Source: Flavobacteriales bacterium (GTDB taxonomy: Bacteria; Bacteroidota; Bacteroidia; Flavobacteriales_F; PHOS-HE28). Taken from it: a stretch of DNA of 57,591 nucleotides. Each line of letters begins with the position of its first letter. Within the stretch, counting starts at the first letter, position 1. This document shows positions 24,567 to 42,349 of this stretch, piece by piece. The notes below the pieces were generated by a model, which was not told the DNA's origin, searched no databases, and saw only the letters and a program-made list of their open reading frames with translations. The translations under genes and the position numbers were made by a program. The stretch lies in assembly GCA_024103275.1 (NCBI GenBank), contig JAGFIV010000080.1, positions 1 through 57,591 on the forward strand, in the 5' to 3' direction.

Positions 24567-24629
24567 TACTGCGTGCCGATCTGTACACCCAATGGAAGCT
24601 GGTGGTCCAGGGCTATATTGAGCACCATA

Positions 24630-27600: not shown

Positions 27601-27653
27601 AAAGCGCGCCCGGCAAGGGTTCAACGATTTCCCTCACGTTCAAGGGCGGATGA
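24630..27653 (+). CDS. Sensor histidine kinase with two-component propeller and Y_Y_Y domain
   Basis: 1007 residues. A signal sequence (SGLVCLALMASPPSPAQ) leads a periplasmic double-propeller sensor made of Reg_prop-type repeats (DGRGFLWIATGNGLNRYDG, QWGRIWLGTTAGISCFD). A Y_Y_Y domain follows (NRYQYRLGQEDW, RFASLKPGPYQLEVRAAR), then one transmembrane helix (FYALLMAVTLGLGYAWHL). The HisKA_3 domain has SRDLHDEIGSRLTN (phospho-His about residue 821), and the ATPase domain carries NIIKHSGA and EVEDDGKGFD. It lacks a fused receiver, so it should phosphorylate the LuxR-type regulator encoded 82 bp downstream. The ligand is unknown; related kinases sense glycans or cell-envelope cues. Confidence 0.92.
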   Translation: MRKAPWATRSGLVCLALMASPPSPAQFGIGHVERLSVEEGLSNGVVYNLLQDGRGFLWIATGNGLNRYDGTEVVQYFATGDSLGPPDNRITSLVQLDTGHLLLGTEQGLATVELATSVFRTEPWPSLPDNPARDHRVHLLARDTRGQIWACTPHAVHLFDSTLAPIEVFRTQPDPAAHRFQNVFKISPLPSGEVLLWLHDGSIWQWIPGARVLEPLEEGDPAGLDFLLGGHYASVTLVDGRYLVRLKGEKILVKDLRSGWLGECDLPGLKGGSMNFMAGTWGPAFAISSSTQGLFVFNLAPDGSGGVAVEQAALRLPHTPAGIAYQDGEANIWLTNGYLGLLKVAREKQLFKHWALPSPEDGRPAPGETSCLMPLGTSLLVGTSEGLLEVDTATGGMRHFKVTDQPGFGNIIWNFRRADEQALWVGTQVGVVTFNPVDGTLGRLPRPHPPVLDSVPITVLMEDGRRRVWFGLGLGGGVVMYDPRGKSYRTFPGIRGGYPYRYPLQAGEDASGRVWFISDVTGNLVKWDDGADGFIPVAVPGVQGDVDIQTGGFFLDKEKNELWYGVRPAKLVRYRIDDGSASLYDASDGLGKGWISTIAGDQWGRIWLGTTAGISCFDPDMGHVIHYSLSDGLAATDYSSSFYDRARNRMYMGATGVLTAFSPPVSPRDNRPMPIYLTGLTVNNDVVTLPRNGRIQLKAWQNNLTVAFTGVNLANGNENRYQYRLGQEDWTSLEHQSSIRFASLKPGPYQLEVRAARKHGEYGPATQVLHFTIRPPFTATAWFYALLMAVTLGLGYAWHLHRLRQWRRLEAVRSRISRDLHDEIGSRLTNINLMGQIADTAGNADAKSGLLRQIQEESLQISRAMRDIIWSIDPDNDSMGNTLPRMVSHASQLLEPRGITVEADVDDLGQIRLDMEARRDLFLIFKECIHNIIKHSGATQVAIRAKTHPGGFLLEVEDDGKGFDPHGSHPVSGLRYMRQRAEKHRWVLLVESAPGKGSTISLTFKGG

Positions 27654-27679
27654 TCCTGCATGCCCGTGCGCCAGGGACC

Positions 27680-27705
27680 GAAAACCACATGAACATGGAA
27701 TTGCC
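27680..27705 (+). promoter_or_regulatory. 26-bp shared motif, copy 1, at the response-regulator promoter
   Basis: The segment begins GAAAACCACATGAACATG and ends AATTGCC, and matches 30776-30801 at 25 of 26 positions (mismatch at 27698). It contains an imperfect dyad ACATG-AA-CATG and ends at the TTG that would be the -33 element. A transcription-factor site is likely. Confidence 0.6.
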
Positions 27706-27730
27706 TTCATGGCCGCGGCCGGTAGCTTTG
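27701..27730 (+). promoter_or_regulatory. Promoter of the response-regulator gene (TTG, 19 bp, TAGCTTTG)
   Basis: TTG at 27701-27703 and TAGCTTTG at 27723-27730 are separated by 19 bp, as expected for a Bacteroidota -33/-7 promoter. The ATG at 27736 lies only 5 bp after the -7 box, so the mRNA would be nearly leaderless. Confidence 0.6.
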
Positions 27731-27735
27731 TTCCC

Positions 27736-28365
27736 ATGCCCTTGAGGATCATCCTATTCGAAGACAACGTGGGGCTCCGGCATTCCATGCGCACCCTGCT
27801 CAACGGGGTTGACGGTTATGCCGTGGTGGGCGACTTCGGCGACTGTTCGACGGCGCGACAGGTTACTGAGGAGCTGCAGCCGGACATCGTGATCATGGAC
27901 ATTGACATGCCGAAAGTGAATGGCATCGAAGGGCTGCGGATCATCAAGGAGGCGAAGCCTGATACAGCCATCATCATGCACACGGTGTTCGAGGATGACG
28001 ACAAGCTTTTCGACAGCCTGTGCGCGGGCGCCAACGGCTATCTGCTGAAGAACACCTCGTACGGCAAACTGATCGAGGCCCTGGAAGAGGTGCGCAACGG
28101 AGGTGCGCCCATGTCACCTTCGGTGGCGCGCAAGGTGCTGCATTCCTTTCAGAGGCCGCAGCCCCGTGACAAATACGGGCTTTCACCCAGGGAATTGGAT
28201 GTGATGCAGTGCTTGGTGAAGGGATACAGCTATAAGATGATCGCAACGGCGCTGTTCATCAGTTTGGCCACCGTGCAGGCCCACATCCGGAACATCTACG
28301 CCAAGCTGCACGTGAACTGCGGGCGCGAGGCCGTGGTGATCGCGCTGCGCGACCGCATCGTTTGA
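27736..28365 (+). CDS. LuxR/NarL-family response regulator
   Basis: 209 residues. Receiver domain (LRIILFEDNVGLRHSMR, phospho-acceptor Asp55 in IVIMDIDMPKVNG, conserved Thr and Lys in MHTVFEDDD and GYLLKNTS) followed by a LuxR-type HTH (LSPRELDVMQCLVKGYSYKM to FISLATVQAHIRNIYAKLHV). It is the likely partner of the propeller kinase directly upstream. The motif over its own promoter recurs at the 30.8-kb operon, so autoregulation and control of that operon are plausible inferences. A perfect GC stem at 28369 follows. Confidence 0.93.
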   Translation: MPLRIILFEDNVGLRHSMRTLLNGVDGYAVVGDFGDCSTARQVTEELQPDIVIMDIDMPKVNGIEGLRIIKEAKPDTAIIMHTVFEDDDKLFDSLCAGANGYLLKNTSYGKLIEALEEVRNGGAPMSPSVARKVLHSFQRPQPRDKYGLSPRELDVMQCLVKGYSYKMIATALFISLATVQAHIRNIYAKLHVNCGREAVVIALRDRIV

Positions 28366-28390: not shown

Positions 28391-30577
28391 TCAGTGCTTC
28401 ACGAAGCGCAACCGGGCCACCGCCCGCTCCTGGGCATCCCATACCTGCATGATGTAGATGCCCGGTGCAAGCCCGCCGATGTGGACCGCGCCGCCCGGCG
28501 GCGCCTCCATCACACGGCGGCCCGTCAGGTTGAGCACCTCCAAACGTACCAGTCCCTGCTTCGGACCCATCAGTTCGATCCGGTCATGCGCGGGATTGGG
28601 GACCAACCGGAATGACTCCGACGCCTGTGCGGCCAGCCCGGTACCGAAATCCACCTGCACGCTGTAGTCTTCGGCTTGGCCGTATCCGATCATGGCACAG
28701 GGATCAAGGGGCACTTCGTCCCAGTTCTTGATCACGCGCATGCGCGTGATCCCGATGGGCGCATCGGCGGGCACGGTGACCATGGCCGTGATCACGTTGT
28801 TGCATGAACTGTTGGTGAGGCTGCCAATCGTTACAGTGGCCTCGAAAACGCTGTCCTGGTCCCAATCAAAGAAGGCCACGACGTGGTCCGTGAACTCGCC
28901 ATCGGTGTTGCCGGTAACGGAGATCGGGTAGGTGGCACCACGCTGTACGTGGGCAACGATGGAGGTGAAATTTTCCAGCATCGGGCTTCCACCCGCCACC
29001 GGCGAGCTCTCGTTGTCGATATCCGCGAATGTGACGCTGCAAATGGGCAACACATTGTTCCCGCCCTGCCCGCCTGCCAGGCCGATCGGCGAGCAGTAAT
29101 GGGGCGGGTTCACATAGATGCTGTAGTCCTCCGCCTGGCCAAAACCGTAGGAGCTGCACGGATCAGTGGGCCAGGATCCAAAGTTTTTGACGATGCGCAT
29201 GCGTGTAACCCCCATCACGGCATCCGGGGGCACCGTGATGTCCATGGGGGCGGTGCTGCCGCATTCCACGTCGGTGATGCTGCCCACCTGCACCGCTGTT
29301 TCGAAGCTGCCGTTGCGGTCCCAATCGAAGAAAGCGGTGATGTAGGTGGTGAACGGCCCTGCCGTATTGCCCGACACGGTGATGGGATAGGTCCGCCCCG
29401 GGTCCACGCTGCCGGCGATGTGGGTGAAGTCTTCCAGGGCCGGGTCCGTCGCCGTGGCAGGGCTGTCGTGGTCAATGCCCGCAAAGGTCACGTTGCAGAT
29501 CGGTTCCACCCAGTTGATGTTGAACCCCGTGCAATATTCCGGTGTTGAGGGAGCCGAGACATGGACGGTGTAGTCTTCCGCCTGGCCGTAGGCATAAGTG
29601 CCGCATGGGTTCGTGGGCTGCGCACCGAAGGCCTTGACGATCCGCATACGTGTGATCCCCAAGGTGGCATTGGGCGGCACCGTGATCACCGCTTCCACGG
29701 AGCCACAGGATCCATTTTGTATGCTCCCGATGTCTTCGGCCGTTTCGTAGGTCCCGTCCTGGTCCCAGTCAAAGAAGGCGGTGATGTAGTTGGTGTAGTT
29801 GCCGGCCGTATTGCCTGACACGATGATGGGGTAGCTCCGCCCCTGCTCCACCACGGCCATGTACCCGGGCCCATCGGCCCACCACGGAACACCCGGTGAT
29901 TGGGTGAAGTCCTCCACGGCGGGGCTTCCATTCACCCCGGGGCTGGACGAACTGTTGATCCAGGAGAAGTAGACGTAGCAGATCGGCTCCACATTGGTGG
30001 TGATCTGGAATTCCGTGCAGTACCATGGCAGGGAGGGCTCCACCACGTGCACGCTGTAATCCTCCGCCTGGCCGTAGTAATAGGCCCCGCAGGGGTCCAT
30101 GGGTTCGTCATCATAATTCTTGATCACGCGCATGCGGGTGGTTCCCAGCGCGGCATTGGCAGGCACCGTTACATAGTCAAATGCGGCATTGTTGCAAACG
30201 GCATTCGACATGCCTCCGATCCACTGGGCCGTCTCGAACACACCGTCCTGGTTCAAATCGAAAAAGACCGTGACCGCATTATAAAAATCACCCTTGGTGT
30301 TCCCGTATACCAGGATGGGATAGAACCGGCCCCGCTCCACCGTGGCAGTCTGGGCGGTGAAGTCCTCCCAGTCGGACATCGTTGGCACATCCCCGGGGCT
30401 ATCATGGTCCAACCCGGCAAAGGAGACCTTGCAGATTGGCTCGACCACGTCGAATGTCGGGGTGCAATACTGTGCCACGGCAGTGTTGCACAGCACGAGC
30501 GCCAGCGGCCAGGCCAGGGATCCGCGACGGCGATCCCGGAAAGCGTTCGGCAAGAGGGTAGGTAATGGGGTATTCAT
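28391..30577 (-). CDS. T9SS-exported protein with four GEVED repeats
   Basis: 728 residues. A signal peptide (LAWPLALVLCNTAVAQ) is followed by four successive units of about 145 residues. Each contains a Cys near its start (EPICKVSFAGLDHDSP and similar), a segment like FFDWDQDGTYETA, VTVPANAALGTTRMRVIK and a GQAEDYSVHV end, the mark of GEVED domains. The last part is a T9SS type A sorting domain (FRLVPNPAHDRIELMG, LEVLNLTGRRVME, GLAPGIYIMQVWD). The protein should be displayed or released at the cell surface; its role is unknown. It sits on the opposite strand between the two copies of the shared 26-bp motif. Confidence 0.88.
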   Translation of the reverse strand: MNTPLPTLLPNAFRDRRRGSLAWPLALVLCNTAVAQYCTPTFDVVEPICKVSFAGLDHDSPGDVPTMSDWEDFTAQTATVERGRFYPILVYGNTKGDFYNAVTVFFDLNQDGVFETAQWIGGMSNAVCNNAAFDYVTVPANAALGTTRMRVIKNYDDEPMDPCGAYYYGQAEDYSVHVVEPSLPWYCTEFQITTNVEPICYVYFSWINSSSSPGVNGSPAVEDFTQSPGVPWWADGPGYMAVVEQGRSYPIIVSGNTAGNYTNYITAFFDWDQDGTYETAEDIGSIQNGSCGSVEAVITVPPNATLGITRMRIVKAFGAQPTNPCGTYAYGQAEDYTVHVSAPSTPEYCTGFNINWVEPICNVTFAGIDHDSPATATDPALEDFTHIAGSVDPGRTYPITVSGNTAGPFTTYITAFFDWDRNGSFETAVQVGSITDVECGSTAPMDITVPPDAVMGVTRMRIVKNFGSWPTDPCSSYGFGQAEDYSIYVNPPHYCSPIGLAGGQGGNNVLPICSVTFADIDNESSPVAGGSPMLENFTSIVAHVQRGATYPISVTGNTDGEFTDHVVAFFDWDQDSVFEATVTIGSLTNSSCNNVITAMVTVPADAPIGITRMRVIKNWDEVPLDPCAMIGYGQAEDYSVQVDFGTGLAAQASESFRLVPNPAHDRIELMGPKQGLVRLEVLNLTGRRVMEAPPGGAVHIGGLAPGIYIMQVWDAQERAVARLRFVKH

Positions 30578-30854
30578 CAGGGGTTCCATTTATTGATCGG
30601 GTCTGGTGCCCATGCGTTCCCGCCCAGGCGGATAAGTGCGGCATTGGCGGGCGAAGGTTCGGCTTGCCTTCAGGGGAATCAATCGCAGGGATATGTGATT
30701 TTGTGCGTACCGCCGAGGCAGGCGGGCCATCCATCCGCAAGCGGGTATTCCGCAGGGTGCGGCCATTGTCCAAGGGAAAACCACATGAACATGTAATTGC
30801 CCGGCTGGGATTGCAGGCCAACCTTCGCCACCATCGGACCTGGCCGATCCCGTT
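30578..30854. other. Divergent control region between the GEVED gene and the surface operon
   Basis: 277 bp. It contains copy 2 of the shared motif (30776-30801) and a downstream -7-like box AACCTTCG at 30820-30827, 20 bp after the TTG at 30797. Nothing else was recognised. Confidence 0.5.
30776..30801 (+). promoter_or_regulatory. 26-bp shared motif, copy 2, at the surface-operon promoter
   Basis: Same sequence as 27680-27705 except T at 30794. Here the dyad is perfect on both arms (ACATG-AA-CATGT). The motif ends at TTG 30797-30799, followed after 20 bp by AACCTTCG, so it overlaps the -33 element exactly as in copy 1. The ATG of the operon is at 30855. Confidence 0.6.
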
Positions 30855-32606
30855 ATGCGACTTAGCCTGCCTCTTATCCTGTTCTTCTGGTGCTGGGCCG
30901 GTCTCACCGCCGTCCGCTTGCAGGCACAGGACCTGGGCAACCTCAAGGGCCAGAAGCCGGTAACGCTCCACGGCAGCCTTTCCGCCGGCTTCAACTACTA
31001 CAGCACGGCCTCGGCGGGCACCGGCAACTTCCAGGGCTATGGCTTCGGCAACTCGCCGTCCTACTTCTTCCAAGCCAACCCGGTGCTATCCATCTACGGC
31101 TTGGCCCTGCCCATGAGCCTGCTGATCGCCAGCCAGGACAAGCAGTACAGCCTGCCCTTCAACCGCTTCGGCCTGAGCCCCTATTACAAATGGGCCAAGC
31201 TGCACCTGGGGTGGCGCTCGCTGAACTTCTCCCAGTTCACCTTGGGCGGCCAGCAGATGCTCGGGGCCGGCTTTGAGCTGACCCCGGGCAAGCTCAAGGC
31301 CTCGTTCATGTACGGCAGGTTCAACAATGCCATCACCGACATCTCGCTGTACAACAACCTGAACAACGCCACGCCCATCTTCCTGCGCAAGGGCTATGCC
31401 GCGCGCCTGGGCTACGGTTCCACGGCCCACTTCATCGAGCTTTCATACCTGCAGGCGGAAGATGACCTGCACTCGGTGAAAGGCATTGCCCTGGACAGCC
31501 TGCCGGCCATGCCCGCGGCCAACCAGGCGGCCGGGCTCAAGGGCCAGGTGACCCTGCGCAAGAAGCTCATCATCCATGCCGATGCGGGCGCCAGCTACTA
31601 CATCCGCAACATCGCCTCGCCCCTGCGCGAGACCGACGACCCGTGGGTGCGCTATGCCGTCTTCCCGCCCCGGTTCAGCTCCCGCATCGCCTTCGCCGGA
31701 GAGGCCGGGATGCGCTACCGTATGCGCGGCGGCAACCTGCGGCTCACCTACCGGCGCATTGACCCCGACTACCGCTCCATGGGGGCCTTCTATATGCAGA
31801 CCGACCTGGAGCAGGTGACCGCAGGATTCGACCAGGCCTTCCTCAAGCGCAAGGTGTTCCTGCGCGCCGACCTGGGCCTGCAACGCAACAACCTGTACAA
31901 CACCGCCGCCAGCAACAGCCGCAGGACCATCGGCAACATCAACCTCAACATCTCCCCCTCCCAAGCCTTCGGCATCGGCATCCAGTATTCCAACCACGGG
32001 ATCTCCCAACAGATCATCCCCCAGCTCCAAGATCCCGCCACGGTGGTGCGCTACGATTCGGTGCTCATCAGCCAGGTCAACCAGTCCATCGCCATCAGCC
32101 CGCGCCTGATGCTCAACCGCGAACGCCCCGTGCAGCACACGATCAACATGCAGGCCTCCATGCAATCCCTGCGCTCAGGCAATGAGACCTACGCCAGCCA
32201 GGAATACTCCTCCAACATGGGGAAACTCACCTATGTAACAGCCTTCACCGGGCGCAAGATCAACCTGAGCAACTCCCTGAACTATTTCAGCACCCGGTCC
32301 ACCGGTGCCCGATCGGCCACGCTCGGCTACAACCTGGGGCTGAGCAAGCAATTCCTGCCCGATACCAGCAGGGCCCCACTGATCAATGCGGTCACCCTTT
32401 CGCTGTACGGCGGCTACTTCGCCACCAGCCTCAACGACCGGCCCACCGGCCACACCATAACGGCCAACCCCGCATTGACCATCACCTTCCTGAAGCGGCA
32501 CTCCCTTCAGCTCAACGCCAACCATACCGCTTCCAGGAACAAGAGTGCCGCCATCACCCAGCGCAACCAGTTGACCTTCTCAGCGCGATACAATCTTTCA
32601 TTCTGA
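30855..32606 (+). CDS. Outer-membrane beta-barrel protein of the surface operon
   Basis: 583 residues. A signal peptide (LPLILFFWCWAGLTAVRLQAQ) leads a chain of alternating amphipathic strands (LHGSLSAGFNYYSTAS, RNQLTFSARYNLSF at the end with the terminal Phe of barrel proteins), about 22-26 strands by eye. No plug, TonB box or known transporter domain was recognised. Its stop overlaps the start of the giant exoprotein gene (ATGA), so the two are tightly coupled. It may export, anchor or assemble the proteins encoded downstream; this is inference. It is not a PorP/SprF-like protein as far as I can tell. Confidence 0.72.
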   Translation: MRLSLPLILFFWCWAGLTAVRLQAQDLGNLKGQKPVTLHGSLSAGFNYYSTASAGTGNFQGYGFGNSPSYFFQANPVLSIYGLALPMSLLIASQDKQYSLPFNRFGLSPYYKWAKLHLGWRSLNFSQFTLGGQQMLGAGFELTPGKLKASFMYGRFNNAITDISLYNNLNNATPIFLRKGYAARLGYGSTAHFIELSYLQAEDDLHSVKGIALDSLPAMPAANQAAGLKGQVTLRKKLIIHADAGASYYIRNIASPLRETDDPWVRYAVFPPRFSSRIAFAGEAGMRYRMRGGNLRLTYRRIDPDYRSMGAFYMQTDLEQVTAGFDQAFLKRKVFLRADLGLQRNNLYNTAASNSRRTIGNINLNISPSQAFGIGIQYSNHGISQQIIPQLQDPATVVRYDSVLISQVNQSIAISPRLMLNRERPVQHTINMQASMQSLRSGNETYASQEYSSNMGKLTYVTAFTGRKINLSNSLNYFSTRSTGARSATLGYNLGLSKQFLPDTSRAPLINAVTLSLYGGYFATSLNDRPTGHTITANPALTITFLKRHSLQLNANHTASRNKSAAITQRNQLTFSARYNLSF

Positions 32607-35600
32607 TGAAGCCCATGCCCACCATCCTCCGCCATGCCCTGCACAGCATCCTGCTGCTGGCCGTGTGCAGCACCCAGGCCACGGCCCAGAACTATCCGAT
32701 CACCCTGCAGGTGCAGCTCATCCCGCCTTATTCCGCCTTTCTGTCGGACTATCTGCAGAAGTCGATCATCTCGTTCACCAACCAGGGCCAACAACCCTTG
32801 GACGTGTACATCCGTGGCCGGTTCGAGAATGACCGCGGGCAGTTCGTGGAAACATCGCCCTACAGCTACTCCAACATCCCGATACATGTACCGGGCATGC
32901 AGACCGTGGTGGTGCAGGGGAGCCAGCTGGACGAGGGTTACCTGGACGTCAACCACCTGAACACGAACCTGGCCGACGAGGACTACGACAACTTCAGGCG
33001 CTTGGGGCAGTTGCCCGAAGGCTACTACACTTTCTGCATCTATGCCTACCGCCGCGATGCCAACGGCAACTACCAGCCTGTAAGCGACCCCTTGGCCATG
33101 GGCTCGTGCTTCCCCTTCCCGATCACCCACGTGCTGCCGCCGGTGATCACCACCCCGGTCACGGGTGACACCATTACGCCCAGCCCGACGCAACAGGTCA
33201 ACATCAGCTGGACCTCGCCCATGGGCTTCAACCCCGGCACAATTACCGTTTACGACCTCTACCTGGTGAAGGTGCTGCCGGGCGAGGACCCCCAGGTATC
33301 CATGGGCAATGCCGTGCAATACAATGCCGGGATCTTCATCAAGCAGCCGGGGATCATGATGAACAACTTCCAGTTCACCAACCTCGGCGGCTTCAACCTG
33401 GAAGAAGGCGGCACCTATGCGTTGATGGTGCAGGCGCGCGACCCGAACGGGCAAACCGCTTTTGAGAACAACGGCCGCAGTGTCACGGAAACATTCGTTT
33501 ATGGGGGCACGGTGCCACCAGCGGGCACGGTGACCGCCATCACCGAGGGCAGCTGTTCATGCGCGGTGGACGTTGCCGCCCTGGACCAGGCCAACAACAC
33601 CGCTTCGCTGGCCCCGGGCGGCAGCTTCACCATGGCCACGCTCACGGTGAAGATCGGCACCGTATCGGTGAGCGGCGGGCTGGCCTCGGGCACCGGCACC
33701 GTGCTGGTGAAACAGGTGCCCGTGCAGGTGACCTTCAGCGGCGTGGCCGTGAACAATGCCGGGGTGGCCATTGCGGGCAGCGCGAAGGCCAAGACGGACA
33801 ATGCGTTCGGGTTCCTGGAGAACAACCCGCTGCCGTCGATCTCCACCTCGGACTACGACTCGTTCATGGACCGCATCTCCGACTACAACCTGGATGCGGT
33901 GCTGGCCGGTGCCGGGGTGATGCTCCCCTTCGGGCTGCACACCTTCGGTGCACCCGATGCGGTGAACGTGGCCGTCGTGGCCTTGGACATCACCCCCGCA
34001 AAGGCCACCTACGATGCCATTGCGGCCGTGCAGCTGGCCGATGCGAACCACGTGCTTTCGCTGTTGGCAAAGGACGTGTGTTTCTCCAACACCTCCGTGA
34101 TGTGCGGGGATGCCCTGTTCGTGCTGGCCCAGGACCTGGAGCTGCCCGGCATCCAGCTGAAGCTGCACGGCTTCCGGTCCGAAGCCGAACCGGGCACCTT
34201 CGTGCGCTATGCCAACGGTGAACTGACCAAGTTCCACATCCGCGCGGAGTATGCCTTCCCGGCGGCGTTGATCACCAAGCTGGACGGCGGGGCGGCCACG
34301 GCCCTGCTGGATGCCGACGCCACCAGCTGGAGCGACTGGACCGCAACGGTATCGCTGGACCCCTTCCGCCTGCCCGCCTTGGACGGCGTGGAGTTCCGCT
34401 TGGCCCAGGGGGCCTTCTACGACCACTCCACCCTGCGCAACCCCACCGGCATGCCCTCCTCCTTCAGCGAACCCCTGCTGGCGGAAAAGAATGCCGAGAT
34501 CGGCACCGCCCTGTGGACCGGCTTCTACCTGCCCACGGCCACGGTGACGTTGCCCGCTATCGTATCCGCTGGGCCGCAAGGCAGCGGCCGGATCGAGATC
34601 GGCGCCACCCACCTGCTGGTGGACGGGTCCGGCCTGAGCGGCATGGTGGGCGCCACCAACGTGATCAGCATCGGCAACGGTTCCCTGGGCGGCTGGTACT
34701 GCTCACTGGACCATGTGGGCATCACCCTGCTCAACTCCTCGTTCATCGGCGGAGGCATGAACGGCCAGGTCATCCTGCCCTTCTCCGACAAGGACAAACA
34801 GGCCAGCCGCATCAACTATTCCTGCACCCTCTCAGCGGACAACAACGGCGGGGGCCTCACCTACCAGTTCATCGCGCAGCAGCAACAGGACATCGACTTT
34901 TCCGCTTGGTGGGCGCGCATCAACATCAACCACTGCAGCATCGAGGTGAGCAACCGCAGCGGCAGCACCGTGGCCTCGGCAGACCTGAGCGGGAAGCTCA
35001 GCATACAGGGCGAGGTGGAAGGTTACCGGGTGGGCCTTGACCTGATCACCATCGAGCACCTGGTGGTGAGCACCGCAGCGCCACACGTGAAGGTGCAGAA
35101 CGCCGTGGCGGGACTAAGCTCTCCCCAGCATTTCATGGCCGATTTCCCGATCAGCAACCTAAGCGTGGAGCCCAAGATCAACGGCAGCAACGTGGGCTTG
35201 CAGATCGGCTTCAAAATGACGCTGAGCGACCTGGCGAACCAGATCCTGCCCGATGCCTCCTCCAAGTTCACGGTGAGCGCCAACGTGCTCGGTGGCACAC
35301 GCCCCGTATGGCAGCGCGCCGACTTCCACCTCGACCAGGTGTGCATCAACGGCGATCTCGCCGGGGTGGTCCACATCAAACAAGGCTGCATTGATTTCTT
35401 CAAGAACGATGCCGTCTTCGGGGACGGCATCTCCGGCTTCCTCCGCGCCTCTTTCGCCGGCCTGGACGCCGTGGAGGTGGACTGCACCGCCAAATTCGGC
35501 CATACCTCGTTCAACTACTGGTACTTCGATGCCTCGGTGACCATCCATCCCGGCATTCCCGTGGCACCCGGCATCAGCATCAACGGTTTCGGAGGTGGTG

Positions 35601-38224
35601 CCTGGTACAATTTGGTGCGCACCGGGAACAGCAATCTGGCGGCCAAGGATTACTTCAACAACATGGCGCAATACCAATTGGGTGCATACCGCCCCCAAAG
35701 CGGTACGCTGGGCTTCAAGGCCAAGCTGGGCATCAGCACGTCGGACGGATACATCTTCTCCGGCTATGGGGAGGTAGGCATCACGTTCAATACGGCGGGG
35801 CCGATCAGCGTGAACGCCCTGGACGGCACCTTCTACGCCCAGGTCCTTAAGGCCACGGAAGGGCTGGCACAAGACGCGAAGGCCCCGGTGCAGGGCATCA
35901 TTGAATGGCACGCCGGCATTGCCGACCGGGTATTCAGCCTCGATGGAAGGGTGGACCTGAATTTCCCATGGGGCGGCACCCCGATTGTATCAGGGTCCGG
36001 CACGTTCGCCTTCCTGGCCGACGTGGGGAACCAGAACTACTACATCAAGTTCGGCGACCCCGCGGAGGAACGCATCAAGGTCTCCATCCTGGACCTGGCC
36101 ACGCTAAAGGGCTACTTCATGGCCGGCAACCGGATCGATGCCGCAATCCCGGACCCCGACCCGGCAATCGTGGATGTCAGCAAGCTCAGTAACTACCACC
36201 GGGTCCAGTACGACCCGGAGGCCGGCGGAATGGTGATGGGGGCCAGCTTCCAGTTCCGGAAACACATCCCTTTCACGATCTTCTTCGCAGAGGTGGAGCT
36301 GGGCGCGGGATTCGATGTGAGCTTCGCCCGGCACACCCGAGGCTGTGAAGACCATCCGGCCCCGCCCGGAGTCAACGGATGGTATGCCATCGGGCAGGTA
36401 TATGCGCGTGTTTCCGGTGCCTTGGGCGTGGAGGTGGACCTGCCGATGGTGGGGCACAAGAAGGTAAAAGCGGCGGAGATCGGGGCCTCAACCGTGCTGG
36501 GAGGCGGCCTTCCCGACCCCTATTGGTTTGACGGCCACCTGTATCTCTATTACAATGCCTTGGGCGGCCTGCTGGAAGGGCATGTCAACTTCAAGGTTTC
36601 CATCGGTGACAAGTGCGTGCCCGACCAGAAAGTGTTCACCATGCCCTTGATCAGCGAGCTCAAGCCTGCGGATGGGTCCACCAAGATCCCGCTCAACGCC
36701 AGCCCCGAGGCCGTGTTCAATTATCCGGTGGAACGCTCGTTCGAGATCGTGGTGATGGATGCCGATGGCATTCAGGTGGCACGCGACTTCCAGCTCAAGC
36801 TGTTGGAATGCAAGGCCACCGACTTGGAAAGCGGCAAAGTATATGCTGATTACTTCAACTTCACGAGCTACCCGGTCTTCCTGGACGATCGCCACACCGA
36901 CCTGGCCCTTGACCCGCAGGATGCGCTGAAGAGCCAGACGCGCTACCGGTTCGATGTGGCCGTGAAGGCGCAGGAGCGCAACGGCAGCAACTGGGTGGAC
37001 TGCACCTATGACGGCAGTCCGGTGAGGGAAAGCAGCTCCGTCACCTTCAAGACCGGCGACTGCAAGCTGGACGAGATCATCGCGGACCCGGGCTCACGGT
37101 TGGCCTCCTTCCCCTTCCCCAACCAGCGTTTCTTCCTGCAAGGCGATTCCCGGAAAGGGGCTGTCATCTTGGACAAGGCGTATGAATGCGCACAGGCACC
37201 CAATGAGAACTATGACCTCCTGGTGCGTTTCACCCCTGCGGACGGCTCCGGCCCCAAGGAGGTGCCCATCGTCCTCAACGGAAGCCGGTACCTGACCTTC
37301 GATATCCCGGCATTGCCCAATGCCACCATCGTGCGCACCGAGGTGATCAAGCGCAGGAAGCTCAGCAGCGGCGATTCCTTCCAGATCATGTCAAACAGCG
37401 TGCTGGCCACCGGCATCAACCAGCATTTTGCGCAAATGACCCAGCCGCTGCAGGTTGGCGGCGGCCAGGGGTTTTCCACCGGGAGCATGACGGCCATGAC
37501 ATCCGCCACGATGATCTCGCAACAAGCCGGCGGCACGCCTTCCTTCAACACAGGCTTTACTCTGCCCGCGTCCGCCGTGGCCCAGCTCGCCGGCATATCC
37601 GGCACAGCCCAATCTTCCGCACCCCAACTCATTGTGCACACGCCGAGCATCTCGACCGGCCCGGCCCAGCTGATGACCAACCAGAAGCTGAGGCTTACCG
37701 ACCGCATCCTGGACGAAGTCTTGTACAAATACCACTTCCGGACGAGCCGCTATAACACCTTGGCCGCCAAAATGAATTCATTCAGCTATAGCTCGCCCAT
37801 TGGCAGCTCGTGGGAATTCTATTCCATAAAGGCATCAATGGCCGAAGGATTCGATGCTTTCGACATAAACGGCTTTGTCAGCAACCGTTACCATAATGGG
37901 AATAGGGTGTATTTCTCCGTGCCATTGGTGACTTTCCGGGAAGCCAGGCAGGGTAACAACTGGGCTGACCAGTACGCCAGGCCCTGTATCTATGAACAAT
38001 ATAGGAATGCCATGGTCAGTATTTGGGATGTTCGTTATGCGCACGGGGTCAGCTATCAGGAAATACAAAGGGCGGGCCTGGAGTGCGATCCTTGGAGTGA
38101 TTGCTTCCCCCGGCGCCCGATCCTCATCCAAAGCATAGAGCCGTCACTGAGCCCCGGGGAAATTTTCCAGGCCTATCCAATAAATCTGATCAGCCCTGCG
38201 CCCAGGGGTTCCTGGCTGTATTGA
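32606..38224 (+). CDS. Giant (1872-residue) exported TANFOR-like protein
   Basis: Signal peptide (ILLLAVCSTQATAQ) followed at residues about 28-180 by a TANFOR-like domain (YPITLQVQLIPPYSAFLSDY, RRLGQLPEGYYTFCIYAYRR, GSCFPFPITHVLPPVITTPV). An FnIII/Ig-like domain follows (about 180-300), then roughly 900 residues of beta-rich repeats of unknown fold. These include several stretches with HCSIEVSN, VEVDCTAKFG and KFKVSIGD-like strands. A Cys-containing Ig-like section (FTMPLISELKPADGST) comes next and a C-terminal region begins about residue 1560. There is no T9SS sorting domain. The last 170 codons are visibly AT-richer than the rest. TANFOR assignment is from remembered family features, not a search. 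It is likely a cell-surface or extracellular structural protein. Confidence 0.75.
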   Translation: MKPMPTILRHALHSILLLAVCSTQATAQNYPITLQVQLIPPYSAFLSDYLQKSIISFTNQGQQPLDVYIRGRFENDRGQFVETSPYSYSNIPIHVPGMQTVVVQGSQLDEGYLDVNHLNTNLADEDYDNFRRLGQLPEGYYTFCIYAYRRDANGNYQPVSDPLAMGSCFPFPITHVLPPVITTPVTGDTITPSPTQQVNISWTSPMGFNPGTITVYDLYLVKVLPGEDPQVSMGNAVQYNAGIFIKQPGIMMNNFQFTNLGGFNLEEGGTYALMVQARDPNGQTAFENNGRSVTETFVYGGTVPPAGTVTAITEGSCSCAVDVAALDQANNTASLAPGGSFTMATLTVKIGTVSVSGGLASGTGTVLVKQVPVQVTFSGVAVNNAGVAIAGSAKAKTDNAFGFLENNPLPSISTSDYDSFMDRISDYNLDAVLAGAGVMLPFGLHTFGAPDAVNVAVVALDITPAKATYDAIAAVQLADANHVLSLLAKDVCFSNTSVMCGDALFVLAQDLELPGIQLKLHGFRSEAEPGTFVRYANGELTKFHIRAEYAFPAALITKLDGGAATALLDADATSWSDWTATVSLDPFRLPALDGVEFRLAQGAFYDHSTLRNPTGMPSSFSEPLLAEKNAEIGTALWTGFYLPTATVTLPAIVSAGPQGSGRIEIGATHLLVDGSGLSGMVGATNVISIGNGSLGGWYCSLDHVGITLLNSSFIGGGMNGQVILPFSDKDKQASRINYSCTLSADNNGGGLTYQFIAQQQQDIDFSAWWARININHCSIEVSNRSGSTVASADLSGKLSIQGEVEGYRVGLDLITIEHLVVSTAAPHVKVQNAVAGLSSPQHFMADFPISNLSVEPKINGSNVGLQIGFKMTLSDLANQILPDASSKFTVSANVLGGTRPVWQRADFHLDQVCINGDLAGVVHIKQGCIDFFKNDAVFGDGISGFLRASFAGLDAVEVDCTAKFGHTSFNYWYFDASVTIHPGIPVAPGISINGFGGGAWYNLVRTGNSNLAAKDYFNNMAQYQLGAYRPQSGTLGFKAKLGISTSDGYIFSGYGEVGITFNTAGPISVNALDGTFYAQVLKATEGLAQDAKAPVQGIIEWHAGIADRVFSLDGRVDLNFPWGGTPIVSGSGTFAFLADVGNQNYYIKFGDPAEERIKVSILDLATLKGYFMAGNRIDAAIPDPDPAIVDVSKLSNYHRVQYDPEAGGMVMGASFQFRKHIPFTIFFAEVELGAGFDVSFARHTRGCEDHPAPPGVNGWYAIGQVYARVSGALGVEVDLPMVGHKKVKAAEIGASTVLGGGLPDPYWFDGHLYLYYNALGGLLEGHVNFKVSIGDKCVPDQKVFTMPLISELKPADGSTKIPLNASPEAVFNYPVERSFEIVVMDADGIQVARDFQLKLLECKATDLESGKVYADYFNFTSYPVFLDDRHTDLALDPQDALKSQTRYRFDVAVKAQERNGSNWVDCTYDGSPVRESSSVTFKTGDCKLDEIIADPGSRLASFPFPNQRFFLQGDSRKGAVILDKAYECAQAPNENYDLLVRFTPADGSGPKEVPIVLNGSRYLTFDIPALPNATIVRTEVIKRRKLSSGDSFQIMSNSVLATGINQHFAQMTQPLQVGGGQGFSTGSMTAMTSATMISQQAGGTPSFNTGFTLPASAVAQLAGISGTAQSSAPQLIVHTPSISTGPAQLMTNQKLRLTDRILDEVLYKYHFRTSRYNTLAAKMNSFSYSSPIGSSWEFYSIKASMAEGFDAFDINGFVSNRYHNGNRVYFSVPLVTFREARQGNNWADQYARPCIYEQYRNAMVSIWDVRYAHGVSYQEIQRAGLECDPWSDCFPRRPILIQSIEPSLSPGEIFQAYPINLISPAPRGSWLY

Positions 38225-38248
38225 CCGCAACCCTAAATCACCTTCCGA

Positions 38249-38899
38249 ATGAGCGCATCACACAACCTTCTTGCCTCACTGCTGTCCTTGTCCCTGGTTT
38301 CCACAGGAGTTGGTCAACCCGTGATCAGTTCCGGAAACCTTACTTCGTTCGCCATGCTCAACGGACCTTCAAATGCCAATATGGTAACTGGAGCCCTCGT
38401 ACAAGCTTCTCAAAACCCTTACATGATCGGCACAATTCAAGCCGCCGGCCCTTCACAAGGAATCATCGATGTGCTCCTATCCAAAGAGGTGACTCTCCAA
38501 TATGCCGTCCCATTTTGGGCGGCGATGGACAAGCTGCGGCTGATGATCGAGCTGAACGCGAGGATCGCGCGCATCATGGATAACCAACAAGAATTGCGCC
38601 TAAAGGCAATCGCTAATTACCAGAACTCTGATTATGTCAAGGCTTGCAATGCGTTCATCCAGTTTGACCAACAACTCCTGGACATGTTGCAACCCGTGCT
38701 GGATGACCTGTCAGGGGCTTGTGCCACGCTGGAATTCAAGGAATTCCACACCAAGGTACATGCGGAGTATATGTACAAGGATGTCCTTACGGGAGCTGGC
38801 TTGATCATGGCAACCGATGGAAATGCCGAGCTCCACAACGTACCGCGCAGCTCGCTGGAAGGCCCCGTGGTGGGCACCAAACTGATCTATAAGAAATAA
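38249..38899 (+). CDS. Small exported helical protein of the surface operon, function unknown
   Basis: 216 residues. A signal peptide (LLASLLSLSLVSTGVGQ) is followed by a mostly helical protein (FWAAMDKLRLMIELNARIAR, IQFDQQLLDMLQPVLDDLSG) and a short beta end (GPVVGTKLIYKK). No family recognised. Base composition is lower in GC than both flanks and matches the last part of the preceding gene. It lies 24 bp after the giant protein and 15 bp before the FnIII gene, so it belongs to the same transcript. Confidence 0.75.
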   Translation: MSASHNLLASLLSLSLVSTGVGQPVISSGNLTSFAMLNGPSNANMVTGALVQASQNPYMIGTIQAAGPSQGIIDVLLSKEVTLQYAVPFWAAMDKLRLMIELNARIARIMDNQQELRLKAIANYQNSDYVKACNAFIQFDQQLLDMLQPVLDDLSGACATLEFKEFHTKVHAEYMYKDVLTGAGLIMATDGNAELHNVPRSSLEGPVVGTKLIYKK

Positions 38900-38914
38900 C
38901 CGGTCCTACGCGTG

Positions 38915-41017
38915 ATGAAAACCTTTGCCCTGCTCCTTTCCGCCGCCCTGCCGGCCTTGGCCATGGCGCAGGCCGCGCCCGCCGGAAAGCCGTCCGCCCC
39001 AAGCGATACCGTGCGCGCGGCCATGCATGTAATCGCCAGGCATTACGGGGACTCCATCGTGGTGCGATGGGCACCGGGCAGCTCTGCGGCGTGGTTGCTG
39101 GCCAACCCGGAGGGCTATATGTTCCGCCGCCAAGTGTTCCGCCGCGGTGAACGGAACGAATTCACCTTGGTCGACTCCTCCTCCACCATGCTCAAACCGT
39201 GGCCGATGGAGCTGTGGGCCCGTGGAATAGAGGCCACCGGCGACAGCCTCGCGCTGATCGCCGCCCAGATGCTGCATGGAAAAACCATGGCCTTCAACAG
39301 CGGGCGAAAAGGCAATTCCATGGCCGAGATCCTGGACAAATACACCGAGCAGGAAAACCGCTTTGCCTACGCCCTGATGGCGGCGGACCAAAGCCGCCTG
39401 GCGGCCGATGGGCTGGCCCTGCGCATGGTGGACAAGCACGTGCAAAAGGGCTTGCACTACCTCTACACCGTGCGCCCGGTGGGCGGGCAGGCCGCCCTGC
39501 GCAGCGACACCGGCCGCGTGCTGCTGAACGACCGCCAGATCCACCTGCCCGACACGTTCCCGGCACTGAACGCCGTGGCGGGCGACCGGGTGATCCACCT
39601 GTTTTGGCCGGAGGGCGGGCCGCTTCTCCCCTATTCCAGTTACGTGGTCGAGCGTGCCAACGACGGCTCGAACTTCAAGCGGCTACACCACCGGCCCTTC
39701 ATCTCCGGCCAAAAACGCGATCCGGGCATGCCCCAGAGCGTGCGCTACGACGATTCGGTGGCGGTGAACTACCACAAGTACACCTATCGGGTGAGCGGCA
39801 TCGATGCATTTGGCGACCTTTCCCTTCCCTCGCCGCCCATCACCGTGATGGCCGTGGACCTGACCCCGCCGACCGCACCCGTGGTGACGGCGATCGGCAA
39901 CACCCCAGAGGGCGGCATCCGCTTTGCCTGGGAAAAGAACGAGCCCGAAGCAGACCTGAACGGCTTCATGGTGGGGCGTGGCACGAATATGGACGGCCCC
40001 TTCGAGCCCTTGATCAAGGACTTGCTGCCACGCGATGCCCGGGAGTTCACCGACCGGCAGCCCGCTCCCGGCGTACCGAACTATTACATCGTGGCCGCCG
40101 TGGATACCGCCGGCAACGCGGGGCGTTCCCTGCCGGCGTACCGCAGCGTGGACGACCGTACCCCGCCGGCCGAACCCGTGGGCCTGGCGGGCAATATCGA
40201 CTCCCTGGGAAGGGTATCGCTAAGCTGGCGATGGAACCGCGAGCCCGACCTGGCCGGGTACCGTGTCTTCTTCAGCAACTCCCCGCACGACGTCCCAACG
40301 CCCGCACACGGCCAGATGCTCAGTGACACGCTCTTCAGCGACAGCACCACCCTGCGTACCTTGACCAAGCACCTGTACTACCAAGTGATCGCTTACGACC
40401 GCAGCATGAACGCCAGCCCGCCTTCAGACCTCCTGAAGCTGGACCGCCCGGACACCATAGCCCCCATGCCCGCCTTGATCCACGATTTCAGCATCGGCAA
40501 GAACGGCGTCACGATCCATTGGCACCCCAGCGCCAGCGAAGATGCCGTGCGGCAACAGGTGCTACGGCAAGCCGACAGCACCGGCACCTGGCAACGGATG
40601 GCCGATCTGCCCCCCGCCGACTCGGCCTACTCCGATACAACCGTGGTGCCGGGCGCGCGCTATGCTTACACCCTCGAGACGTTTGATGCCGGCGGGCTCA
40701 GCTCGGGCCGCTCGTTCCCGTTGCGCGCCTATATCCCCCGCAGTACGGGCGACGCGGCCATCCGCGGGCTGAAGGCGGAACTGATGCAGGACAGCGTGGT
40801 GCTTGCCTGGGCACCACCCCTCAAACCCGTGAACTACTACATCCTGTACCGGGGCCAGGCCGGAGAAGGGCTGCGACTGGCCTGCAACATCCCGGGTGAA
40901 AAGGCCAGTTACACGGACCGGTCGGGAGGCCCGGGCACCAGTTATGCAATCAAGGCCGTGCACGCTGACGGCAGCCATTCCGCCGTGAGCGAGGTGGTGC
41001 GTGTGCATAAGCCATAA
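38915..41017 (+). CDS. Exported protein with several fibronectin type III domains
   Basis: 700 residues. Signal peptide (TFALLLSAALPALAMAQ). Four to five FnIII-like domains follow from about residue 25, with repeated features such as KYTYRVSGIDAFGDLS, PNYYIVAAVDTAGNAG, HLYYQVIAYDRSMNAS and RYAYTLETFDAGGLSS. No T9SS domain, LPXTG or membrane anchor is present; it ends SEVVRVHKP. The ATG at 38915 was preferred to a GTG at 38912. It is the last gene clearly in the operon started at 30855 and probably works with the giant protein in an extracellular assembly. Confidence 0.82.
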   Translation: MKTFALLLSAALPALAMAQAAPAGKPSAPSDTVRAAMHVIARHYGDSIVVRWAPGSSAAWLLANPEGYMFRRQVFRRGERNEFTLVDSSSTMLKPWPMELWARGIEATGDSLALIAAQMLHGKTMAFNSGRKGNSMAEILDKYTEQENRFAYALMAADQSRLAADGLALRMVDKHVQKGLHYLYTVRPVGGQAALRSDTGRVLLNDRQIHLPDTFPALNAVAGDRVIHLFWPEGGPLLPYSSYVVERANDGSNFKRLHHRPFISGQKRDPGMPQSVRYDDSVAVNYHKYTYRVSGIDAFGDLSLPSPPITVMAVDLTPPTAPVVTAIGNTPEGGIRFAWEKNEPEADLNGFMVGRGTNMDGPFEPLIKDLLPRDAREFTDRQPAPGVPNYYIVAAVDTAGNAGRSLPAYRSVDDRTPPAEPVGLAGNIDSLGRVSLSWRWNREPDLAGYRVFFSNSPHDVPTPAHGQMLSDTLFSDSTTLRTLTKHLYYQVIAYDRSMNASPPSDLLKLDRPDTIAPMPALIHDFSIGKNGVTIHWHPSASEDAVRQQVLRQADSTGTWQRMADLPPADSAYSDTTVVPGARYAYTLETFDAGGLSSGRSFPLRAYIPRSTGDAAIRGLKAELMQDSVVLAWAPPLKPVNYYILYRGQAGEGLRLACNIPGEKASYTDRSGGPGTSYAIKAVHADGSHSAVSEVVRVHKP

Positions 41018-41053: not shown

Positions 41054-42349
41054 ATGAAACCGATGTCCCTCGCCGTACTGGCATCCATCCTCTTGTTGAC
41101 CGGCGCGGCCACCGCACAAAACATCCACGTGGACGGGCGCTGGATCATCGGCCCGTGCGGGGATACGCTCATCCTGAAGGGCGTGAACTATGCCCCCTAC
41201 AACTGGGGCTGGTCACCCGATGAGCTGCACATCGACCAGATCGCGCTCAGCGGTGCCAACTGCGTGCGCCTGCCTTGGTACGAAGCCACCCCGGACGGTG
41301 CCCAGCCGCAGGCCACCTACGACAACCTGGCCAAGCTGGACCAGGCATTGGCCGCCTGCACAAGCCATGGCATGATACCGATCCTGGACCTGCACGACCA
41401 GAAGTGCGCCAACGACCCGGCGGCCCTGATCGCCCTTGCCAATTGGTACACCCAACCCGGCGTGATGGCCGTGCTGGACAACCATGCGCAGGACATGATC
41501 ATCAATGTGGCCAACGAGGCACTGAACGTACTGTGGAGCGGCAATCCGGCGGCCGCACAGGCCACTTTCGTGTCCACGTACACCACCATCATCAACAATC
41601 TGCGCAATGCCGGCATCGGCATGCCCCTGATGATCGATGCACCGGATTGCGGCATCAACCTGGACGTGCTGGCCGAGGTCGGCAGTCAACTGCTGCAGGC
41701 CGATCCGCAGGGCAACCTGATCTTCAGTGCGCACGGATATTGGCACAGTTTCGCCAACAATGATCCCGCACAAATGCAGGTGAAGATGGATCATGCCTTG
41801 GACCAAGGCATCCCCTTCGTGATGGCGGAGGTGGCCAATCTGCAGGATGATGCGCAGATGTGCCAATACACCTTGGACTACAATGCGCTGCTCAATATCT
41901 GCACCGAAGCACAGGTGGGGTGGTTGGCTTGGAGCTGGGACCGCGACGGATGCAGCGCCCGCCAGATCAGCACCAATGGGATGGCCAACAGCCTCACGCC
42001 CTACGGCAACGACATTGTGAACAACCCCGGCCATGGATTGGCCGTGAACACCGTGCGCAGCGCGCACTTGGTGCTTGAGGATTGCAGCAGCACCGGCATG
42101 GGCGGAAGCATGCCCACCAGCGGAAACTGGACGGTATGGGTGGACATGCCGCGGCAACAGATCGATGTGGAGGGTTTGATCGCCGTGGACCACGCCAGAC
42201 TGGTGGACCTTCAGGGCAGGGCCGTGCCGCTGGCCCGTGCAGGGCGACTTTCCTTCCACTATGGTACGTTGGCACCCGGCATCTACACCCTGGTATTGAT
42301 CACACGTGAGGGGCGCCTGGCCACCCGTAACGTGTTCCTGGGCCGGTGA
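41054..42349 (+). CDS. GH5-type glycoside hydrolase with T9SS sorting domain
   Basis: 431 residues. Signal peptide (LAVLASILLLTGAATAQ), then a cellulase-like TIM barrel (about 25-300) with LKGVNYAPYNWGW, GANCVRLPWY and LDLHDQK. The acid/base Glu155 lies in VANEALNV and the nucleophile Glu259 in FVMAEVANL, both in the usual GH5 positions. The C-terminus (ARLVDLQGRAVPLA, LAPGIYTLVLITREG) is a T9SS type A domain. It should be secreted and cut a beta-1,4-linked glycan, with mannan or cellulose possible. It lies 36 bp after the FnIII gene and may share its transcript. Confidence 0.88.
   Translation: MKPMSLAVLASILLLTGAATAQNIHVDGRWIIGPCGDTLILKGVNYAPYNWGWSPDELHIDQIALSGANCVRLPWYEATPDGAQPQATYDNLAKLDQALAACTSHGMIPILDLHDQKCANDPAALIALANWYTQPGVMAVLDNHAQDMIINVANEALNVLWSGNPAAAQATFVSTYTTIINNLRNAGIGMPLMIDAPDCGINLDVLAEVGSQLLQADPQGNLIFSAHGYWHSFANNDPAQMQVKMDHALDQGIPFVMAEVANLQDDAQMCQYTLDYNALLNICTEAQVGWLAWSWDRDGCSARQISTNGMANSLTPYGNDIVNNPGHGLAVNTVRSAHLVLEDCSSTGMGGSMPTSGNWTVWVDMPRQQIDVEGLIAVDHARLVDLQGRAVPLARAGRLSFHYGTLAPGIYTLVLITREGRLATRNVFLGR

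Follow-up and report, generated by a model that had tools for sequence, protein, structure and literature searches.

In two-partner secretion (type Vb, TpsA/TpsB), a large exported protein with an N-terminal targeting domain is encoded in one operon with its dedicated barrel. A comparable pairing is found in SprB/SprF and PG1035/PorP, in which a protein with a type B C-terminal domain (CTD) has its own PorP-like barrel, thought to anchor the cargo (PMC9143113, PMC12618676). TANFOR domain (TIGR02542) proteins, which are large, Sec-exported and nearly confined to Bacteroidetes, are enriched in Fn3 (fibronectin type III, FnIII) proteins next door; Jana, Salomon and Bosis (2020) described toxin tips and immunity genes for them and proposed the type IX secretion system (T9SS) as their route (PMC7073777). 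The text of that paper does not mention a barrel, and we found no further paper on the TANFOR domain in a search limited to open-licence full texts, so a description elsewhere is possible. Here, we analyse a contig of 57,591 nucleotides from a Flavobacteriales bacterium (assembly GCA_024103275.1, contig JAGFIV010000080.1), referred to in its whole length as the window, whose genome measures 3.58 Mb in 137 contigs. It carries an operon for a predicted outer-membrane barrel (B), a giant TANFOR-family protein (T), a 216-aa exported protein and an FnIII-repeat protein (F). This gene set is widespread in Bacteroidota and apparently undescribed so far. Based on conserved linkage, co-gain and co-loss, gene fusion, selective co-variation and the predicted barrel fold, we propose, with a probability of roughly 0.6, that the barrel is the dedicated outer-membrane partner of the giant, acting as anchor or export pore, and that the giant bridges to the FnIII protein.

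The giant resembles the published TANFOR proteins in its N-terminal domain, size, Sec export and Fn3 neighbours, and the reported Fn3 enrichment fits the FnIII gene of the operon; the giants of this family differ in being barrel-linked, in lacking detectable toxin domains and in carrying a conserved beta-meander. The locus is like SprB/SprF and PG1035/PorP in that a dedicated outer-membrane barrel is encoded beside a giant surface protein. However, PorP and SprF are 14-strand barrels of the FadL type serving type B CTD cargo, whereas the barrel here has about 25 predicted strands and belongs to another family, and no CTD was found. A giant with an N-terminal domain sharing one operon with a dedicated barrel is also the plan of two-partner secretion, but no POTRA or Omp85 match was obtained with Pfam in 80 barrels of the family, and the N-domain is TANFOR rather than the TPS beta-helix domain. 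The pairing of an outer-membrane barrel with a surface partner in a Bacteroidota operon likewise recalls SusC/SusD, although the barrel here has neither plug nor TonB box and there is no lipoprotein lid.

The earlier note on this DNA had described four same-strand genes for exported proteins, and these stand: the open reading frames and spacings were confirmed, with gaps of -1, 24 and then 12 or 15 bp, depending on whether the FnIII gene starts at the GTG at 38912 (701 aa) or at the ATG at 38915 (700 aa). Codon-usage scoring found all four genes to be coding and recovered them as called, with the 216-aa gene shortened. A Sec-type signal peptide, judged by eye from the sequence, is present at the start of all four proteins, and the same inspection revealed no lipobox in any of them. 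The features are as follows.

30855..32606, + strand: barrel gene (B), 583 aa; about 25 predicted strands, no plug, C-terminal Phe; no Pfam or NCBIfam entry
32606..38224, + strand: TANFOR-family giant gene (T), 1872 aa, with signal peptide
32678..33565, + strand: TANFOR N-domain of the giant (about aa 25-300); shows co-variation with the barrel, to which it is joined in one chain in two other genomes
34574..36613, + strand: beta-meander domain of the giant (aa 657-1336); conserved, of no known family, a gene of its own in locus L193
Near aa 1346-1462 of the giant: Big_5-like Ig region
C-terminal part of the giant: conserved
38249..38899, + strand: gene for the 216-aa exported protein, an occasional extra gene
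38912..41017, + strand: FnIII-repeat exported protein gene (F), 701 aa; last gene of the core operon throughout the family

The barrel, TANFOR and FnIII genes across Bacteroidota

Searching genome contigs with a barrel profile returned 465 relatives, and locus counts use the best 80 (collected loci are given L-numbers and genomes G-numbers). These 80 come from Saprospiraceae, Chitinophagaceae, Sphingobacteriaceae, Cytophagales, Flavobacteriales and Bacteroidales, plus one metagenome-assembled genome labelled Gemmatimonadetes. A TANFOR-type giant lies directly downstream of the barrel in 78 of the 80, at a median gap of 12 bp. An FnIII gene comes next in 59 loci and is set off from the giant by a single extra gene in 3; 16 contigs end inside the giant. 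The exceptions are L111, with the order T-F-B, and L106, with F-B. Other altered orders with the same partners occur in L189 and L193 (barrel, meander, FnIII, TANFOR in the latter), head-to-head divergent arrangements in L054 and L056, and minimal T-B pairs without F in L184-L187 and L201. The window, in which B, T and F follow one another on the same strand, contains the barrel-TANFOR-FnIII unit. A second operon in its genome (L010, minus strand) has a barrel 35% identical to that of the window, an FnIII protein and no 216-aa gene, and its giant of 2078 aa shares only approximately the first 300 residues with the window giant. The core unit is composed of three genes, encoding barrel, TANFOR giant and FnIII protein, with the 216-aa gene as an infrequent accessory; the four-gene operon of the earlier note thus holds as far as the order, conserved across Bacteroidota, is concerned, but not in its number of core members.

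Some individual loci deserve mention. The contig labelled Gemmatimonadetes (L142) has an intact-looking operon, and misbinning is possible. In L184, a 914-aa TANFOR protein (L184:7090-9834), whose C-terminal part is an RCC1 propeller, precedes a barrel gene with no FnIII gene.

Linkage was also surveyed in 198 Bacteroidota genomes, with strong barrel matches defined by E < 1e-15 and TANFOR detected by our profile A8. Strong TANFOR matches were present in 43 genomes and barrels in 44, with both in 43 (Fisher 6e-43, uncorrected for phylogeny). The genus of the window offers a better test than this value, since presence varies inside one genus: 15 genomes have both genes, 17 have neither and 3 are mixed (p 6e-7), and among genomes at least 90% complete, the counts are 11, 11 and 2. 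The mixed cases comprise G009 (at a contig end) and G028, which have only a fragment of the barrel, at most a few hundred residues long, and G015, a 69% complete genome. Among 69 T loci, a barrel lies less than 700 bp upstream in 38 and within 12 kb in 21 more.

In two loci, the genes are fused. The products, of 899 aa in L188 (TANFOR 1.5e-27, barrel 1.3e-33) and 893 aa in L202 (TANFOR 1.7e-20, barrel 1.3e-23), both have TANFOR preceding the barrel. Moreover, evolutionary distances over 59 complete operons are correlated between B and the N-domain of T (r 0.86-0.89; partial, with the others controlled for, 0.80-0.83) and between the FnIII protein and the last 700 residues of the giant (r 0.89; partial 0.84), while the N-domain and C-terminus of the giant, on the same chain, reach only r 0.57 (partial 0.19). 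This split suggests that the giant consists of two joined modules, an outer-membrane end and an FnIII end.

Properties of the encoded proteins and their neighbourhood

The AlphaFold2 model of the barrel, built with 80 homologues, is a single barrel of about 25 strands without a plug domain (pLDDT 86.7, pTM 0.79), in agreement with the plug-less barrel suggested earlier. The C-terminal residue is Phe in 64 of the 80 barrels, as expected for outer-membrane barrels. No Pfam or NCBIfam match was found for the window protein, nor did searches of the 80 barrels against both databases place the barrel in any family; models of PorP/SprF were absent among the matches (E <= 0.01), TonB-dependent receptor families gave no match, and a sequence search of the PDB found no relative. 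The top structural matches by VIA-align were MtrB (Z 18.1 over 468 residues), several OprD-type porins, SprA (16.4 over 422) and FimD (15.4 over 392). Barrels of 24 to 26 strands, those of the FimD/PapC ushers and of decaheme-associated MtrB, are thus among the best matches, but the resemblance is one of barrel size only: the model has no plug, and there are no chaperone, pilin or cytochrome genes, with no chaperone-type gene among the four in the window. The barrel is therefore best described as a predicted wide outer-membrane barrel of no specific structural family. Distant relatives of 799-909 aa with a long N-terminal extension (L196:1015-3744, L197:1222-3915 and L198:1343-3742; barrel-profile E ~1e-25) are encoded after a small exported protein (with a FecR domain in L197) and before a CHASE2 cyclase gene in L197, with similar neighbours in L196 and L198. 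These may be sensory loci using the same barrel fold.

The window giant itself falls below threshold against TIGR02542 (E 0.017, 15.1 bits, with a curated cut-off of 67 bits), and its closest full-length homologue, in L109, scores 24.8 bits. Nevertheless, a search with its first 320 residues recovers 98 members of the collected set (E <= 1e-5), and TIGR02542 is matched at E <= 0.01 by 17 of the 21 operon giants (best 7.8e-59). The window giant may thus be classed, by homology only, as a divergent TANFOR member, which bears out the TANFOR-like N-terminus read from it originally. In the survey, TANFOR open frames of about 6400 residues were also seen with no barrel within 12 kb (L192:6362-19000 in G090, G069:C7 and G185:C91).

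Residues 172-1371 are modelled, with moderate confidence (pLDDT 73.8, pTM 0.42), as a long amphipathic antiparallel meander, and a profile of its best-conserved 690 residues found 34 proteins, one of them the product of a standalone gene directly after the barrel (L193:5049-8363). This domain has no name in Pfam or NCBIfam. We claim no fold assignment for it, as the Foldseek matches (porins, LptD, S-layer barrels, ApoB) had query-normalised TM scores below 0.16 and the VIA-align Z values to porins, of up to 15.2, came with an rmsd of 10 over 280 residues; a PDB sequence search with the giant gave a chance match only (E 0.54). That the meander forms a second membrane barrel is an idea against which the protein-terminal copies in L189 and L193 count, as they lack a terminal Phe.

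Further along the chain, the C-terminus of the window giant can be aligned with that of several distant relatives (L109, L108, L117, L048 and L055). Giant C-termini are not conserved across classes. No Pfam domain of any kind, and hence no toxin domain known to Pfam, was found in the C-termini of the window giant and 45 relatives, although a toxin of a new fold may be present. In line with the first description of the locus, neither Por_Secre_tail nor CHU_C nor a type B CTD was detected by Pfam and NCBIfam in the four window proteins; more widely, no T9SS type A (TIGR04183) or type B (TIGR04131) CTD was detected in 21 giants, 46 giant C-termini (Pfam) or 19 FnIII proteins (NCBIfam). The fourth protein does consist of FnIII repeats, as had been noted (fn3, E 3.8e-10).

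The 216-aa protein has no significant Pfam or NCBIfam match, and among 198 class genomes its family profile picked up just the window and G044. A gene for a small exported protein also separates the giant and FnIII genes in L055 (191 aa) and in L109 of Chryseolinea lacunae (174 aa); the giants of these two loci share 30-31% identity with the window giant over most of their length. The L055 and L109 small proteins resemble one another (E 0.001); that of the window has a weak match to the one of L055 (E 0.20) and, by BLAST, none to the one of L109. The window protein is likely homologous to both, judging by the shared gene position, although its sequence does not prove this.

As for the surroundings, a GH5 cellulase-like gene (41054-42349) begins 36 bp past the FnIII gene and is possibly co-transcribed with it; the C-terminus of its product looks by eye like a T9SS type A tail, with no model matching. 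Upstream of the operon (24573-28365) are genes for a two-component sensor (Reg_prop, Y_Y_Y, HisKA_3) and a LuxR regulator, and the divergent neighbour (28391-30589) encodes a T9SS tail near threshold (22.3 bits against a cut-off of 23). In 30 of 65 loci, two-component genes occur in the 6 kb preceding the barrel, but in only 4 of 53 do they occur downstream of the FnIII gene.

Proposed arrangement and rival explanations

From these data, we infer barrel-giant contact, topology, export and surface location as follows. All components would leave the cytoplasm via Sec, consistent with the visible signal peptides, and the barrel would sit in the outer membrane as a wide, plug-less channel. The TANFOR N-domain of the giant would dock on the barrel, probably at the periplasmic face or inside the lumen, because TANFOR precedes the barrel in the fusions: if both barrel termini lie in the periplasm, as in the known barrel topology, a domain placed first would be periplasmic. 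The rest of the giant, the long beta-meander and then the Ig-like parts, would be displayed outside or span outward, and its C-terminal part may bind the FnIII protein, as the co-variation suggests. The barrel would in this way serve as a dedicated anchor, and possibly exit channel, for the TANFOR protein. A bolder version, which we consider doubtful, is that barrel and TANFOR N-domain constitute a T9SS-independent two-partner route for export and anchoring, in which the giant emerges through the barrel and clasps the FnIII protein outside, the barrel family then being the missing export partner of the TANFOR polymorphic toxins.

The main rival, which overlaps with the barrel-partner reading on the anchoring step, is that SprA exports the giant by means of an unrecognised sorting signal and that the barrel then anchors it without exporting it, as SprF does SprB. 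It has a real chance of being right, though short of even: the T9SS was proposed for TANFOR proteins (PMC7073777), SprB-SprF and PG1035-PorP set the precedent of a dedicated barrel beside a giant or cognate T9SS substrate (PMC9143113, PMC12618676), and SprA is present in 44 of 44 barrel genomes. This co-occurrence has no power, however, and was dropped as evidence of T9SS dependence because 154 of 198 genomes have SprA and the listed SprA-negative ones are almost all from one family. A sorting signal also fits poorly with giants that show no type A or B CTD and C-termini that are not conserved across classes, and neither family search nor strand number makes the barrel PorP/SprF-like. A polymorphic toxin system, with the giant delivering a C-terminal toxin, the 216-aa protein as immunity protein or separate effector and the barrel as exporter, appears very improbable. 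TANFOR proteins were published as such toxins, in some cases with the toxin encoded by the gene that follows (PMC7073777), and three lineages have a small variable gene after the giant; yet the 46 giant C-termini have no Pfam match, that of the window aligns with distant relatives, unlike a swapped toxin tip, the 216-aa protein carries a signal peptide, and in most loci the giant and FnIII genes are direct neighbours. Also improbable is an uptake or binding system resembling SusC/D in function, the barrel being a substrate-specific channel and giant and FnIII protein capturing a surface polymer. The adjacent GH5 gene and the upstream bias of two-component genes would suit it, but the 80 barrels show no plug or TonB-dependent receptor match, there is no lipoprotein partner, and no enzyme gene consistently lies past the FnIII gene in other loci.

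Several points weigh against the barrel as partner of the giant. Its structural matches are generic for large barrels, with an rmsd of 6 to 10; profile A8 was made from barrel-linked loci and thereby favours barrel-linked TANFOR, and the barrel-independent search of the 198 genomes with TIGR02542 offers no counterweight, as it gave 0 matches even for its controls; and 10 of 69 T genes have no same-strand barrel within 12 kb. In addition, B adjoins T and the giant's C-terminus adjoins F, so a swap of adjacent DNA segments would produce the same co-variation, which therefore supports contact but does not prove it. Taken to its end, this argument would have the genes merely travel together, with a recombination breakpoint inside the giant producing the two co-variation blocks and products that make no contact. 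We regard such block inheritance alone as quite unlikely in view of the TANFOR-barrel fusions, the T-B pairs without F, the altered orders that keep the partners (L111, L189, L193) and the divergent head-to-head arrangements (L054, L056). The dedicated barrel of the earlier note thus gains strong support from co-occurrence, fusion and selective co-variation, with its exporting or holding step still inferential; the observations that the note named as refuting did not go against it, since the gene order is conserved in relatives across Bacteroidota, the barrel belongs to no Pfam or NCBIfam family and no sorting domain was found in the giant.

How TANFOR proteins, including the proposed toxins, cross or attach to the outer membrane has so far been answered with a published guess, the T9SS, and the barrel provides a direct candidate: every surveyed genome with strong TANFOR matches has it, the two come and go together within a genus, and in some cases barrel and TANFOR domain are fused. 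Names and boundaries are now given to a widespread set of unannotated surface genes, and the barrel is the leading candidate for holding TANFOR proteins on the outer membrane or moving them across it.

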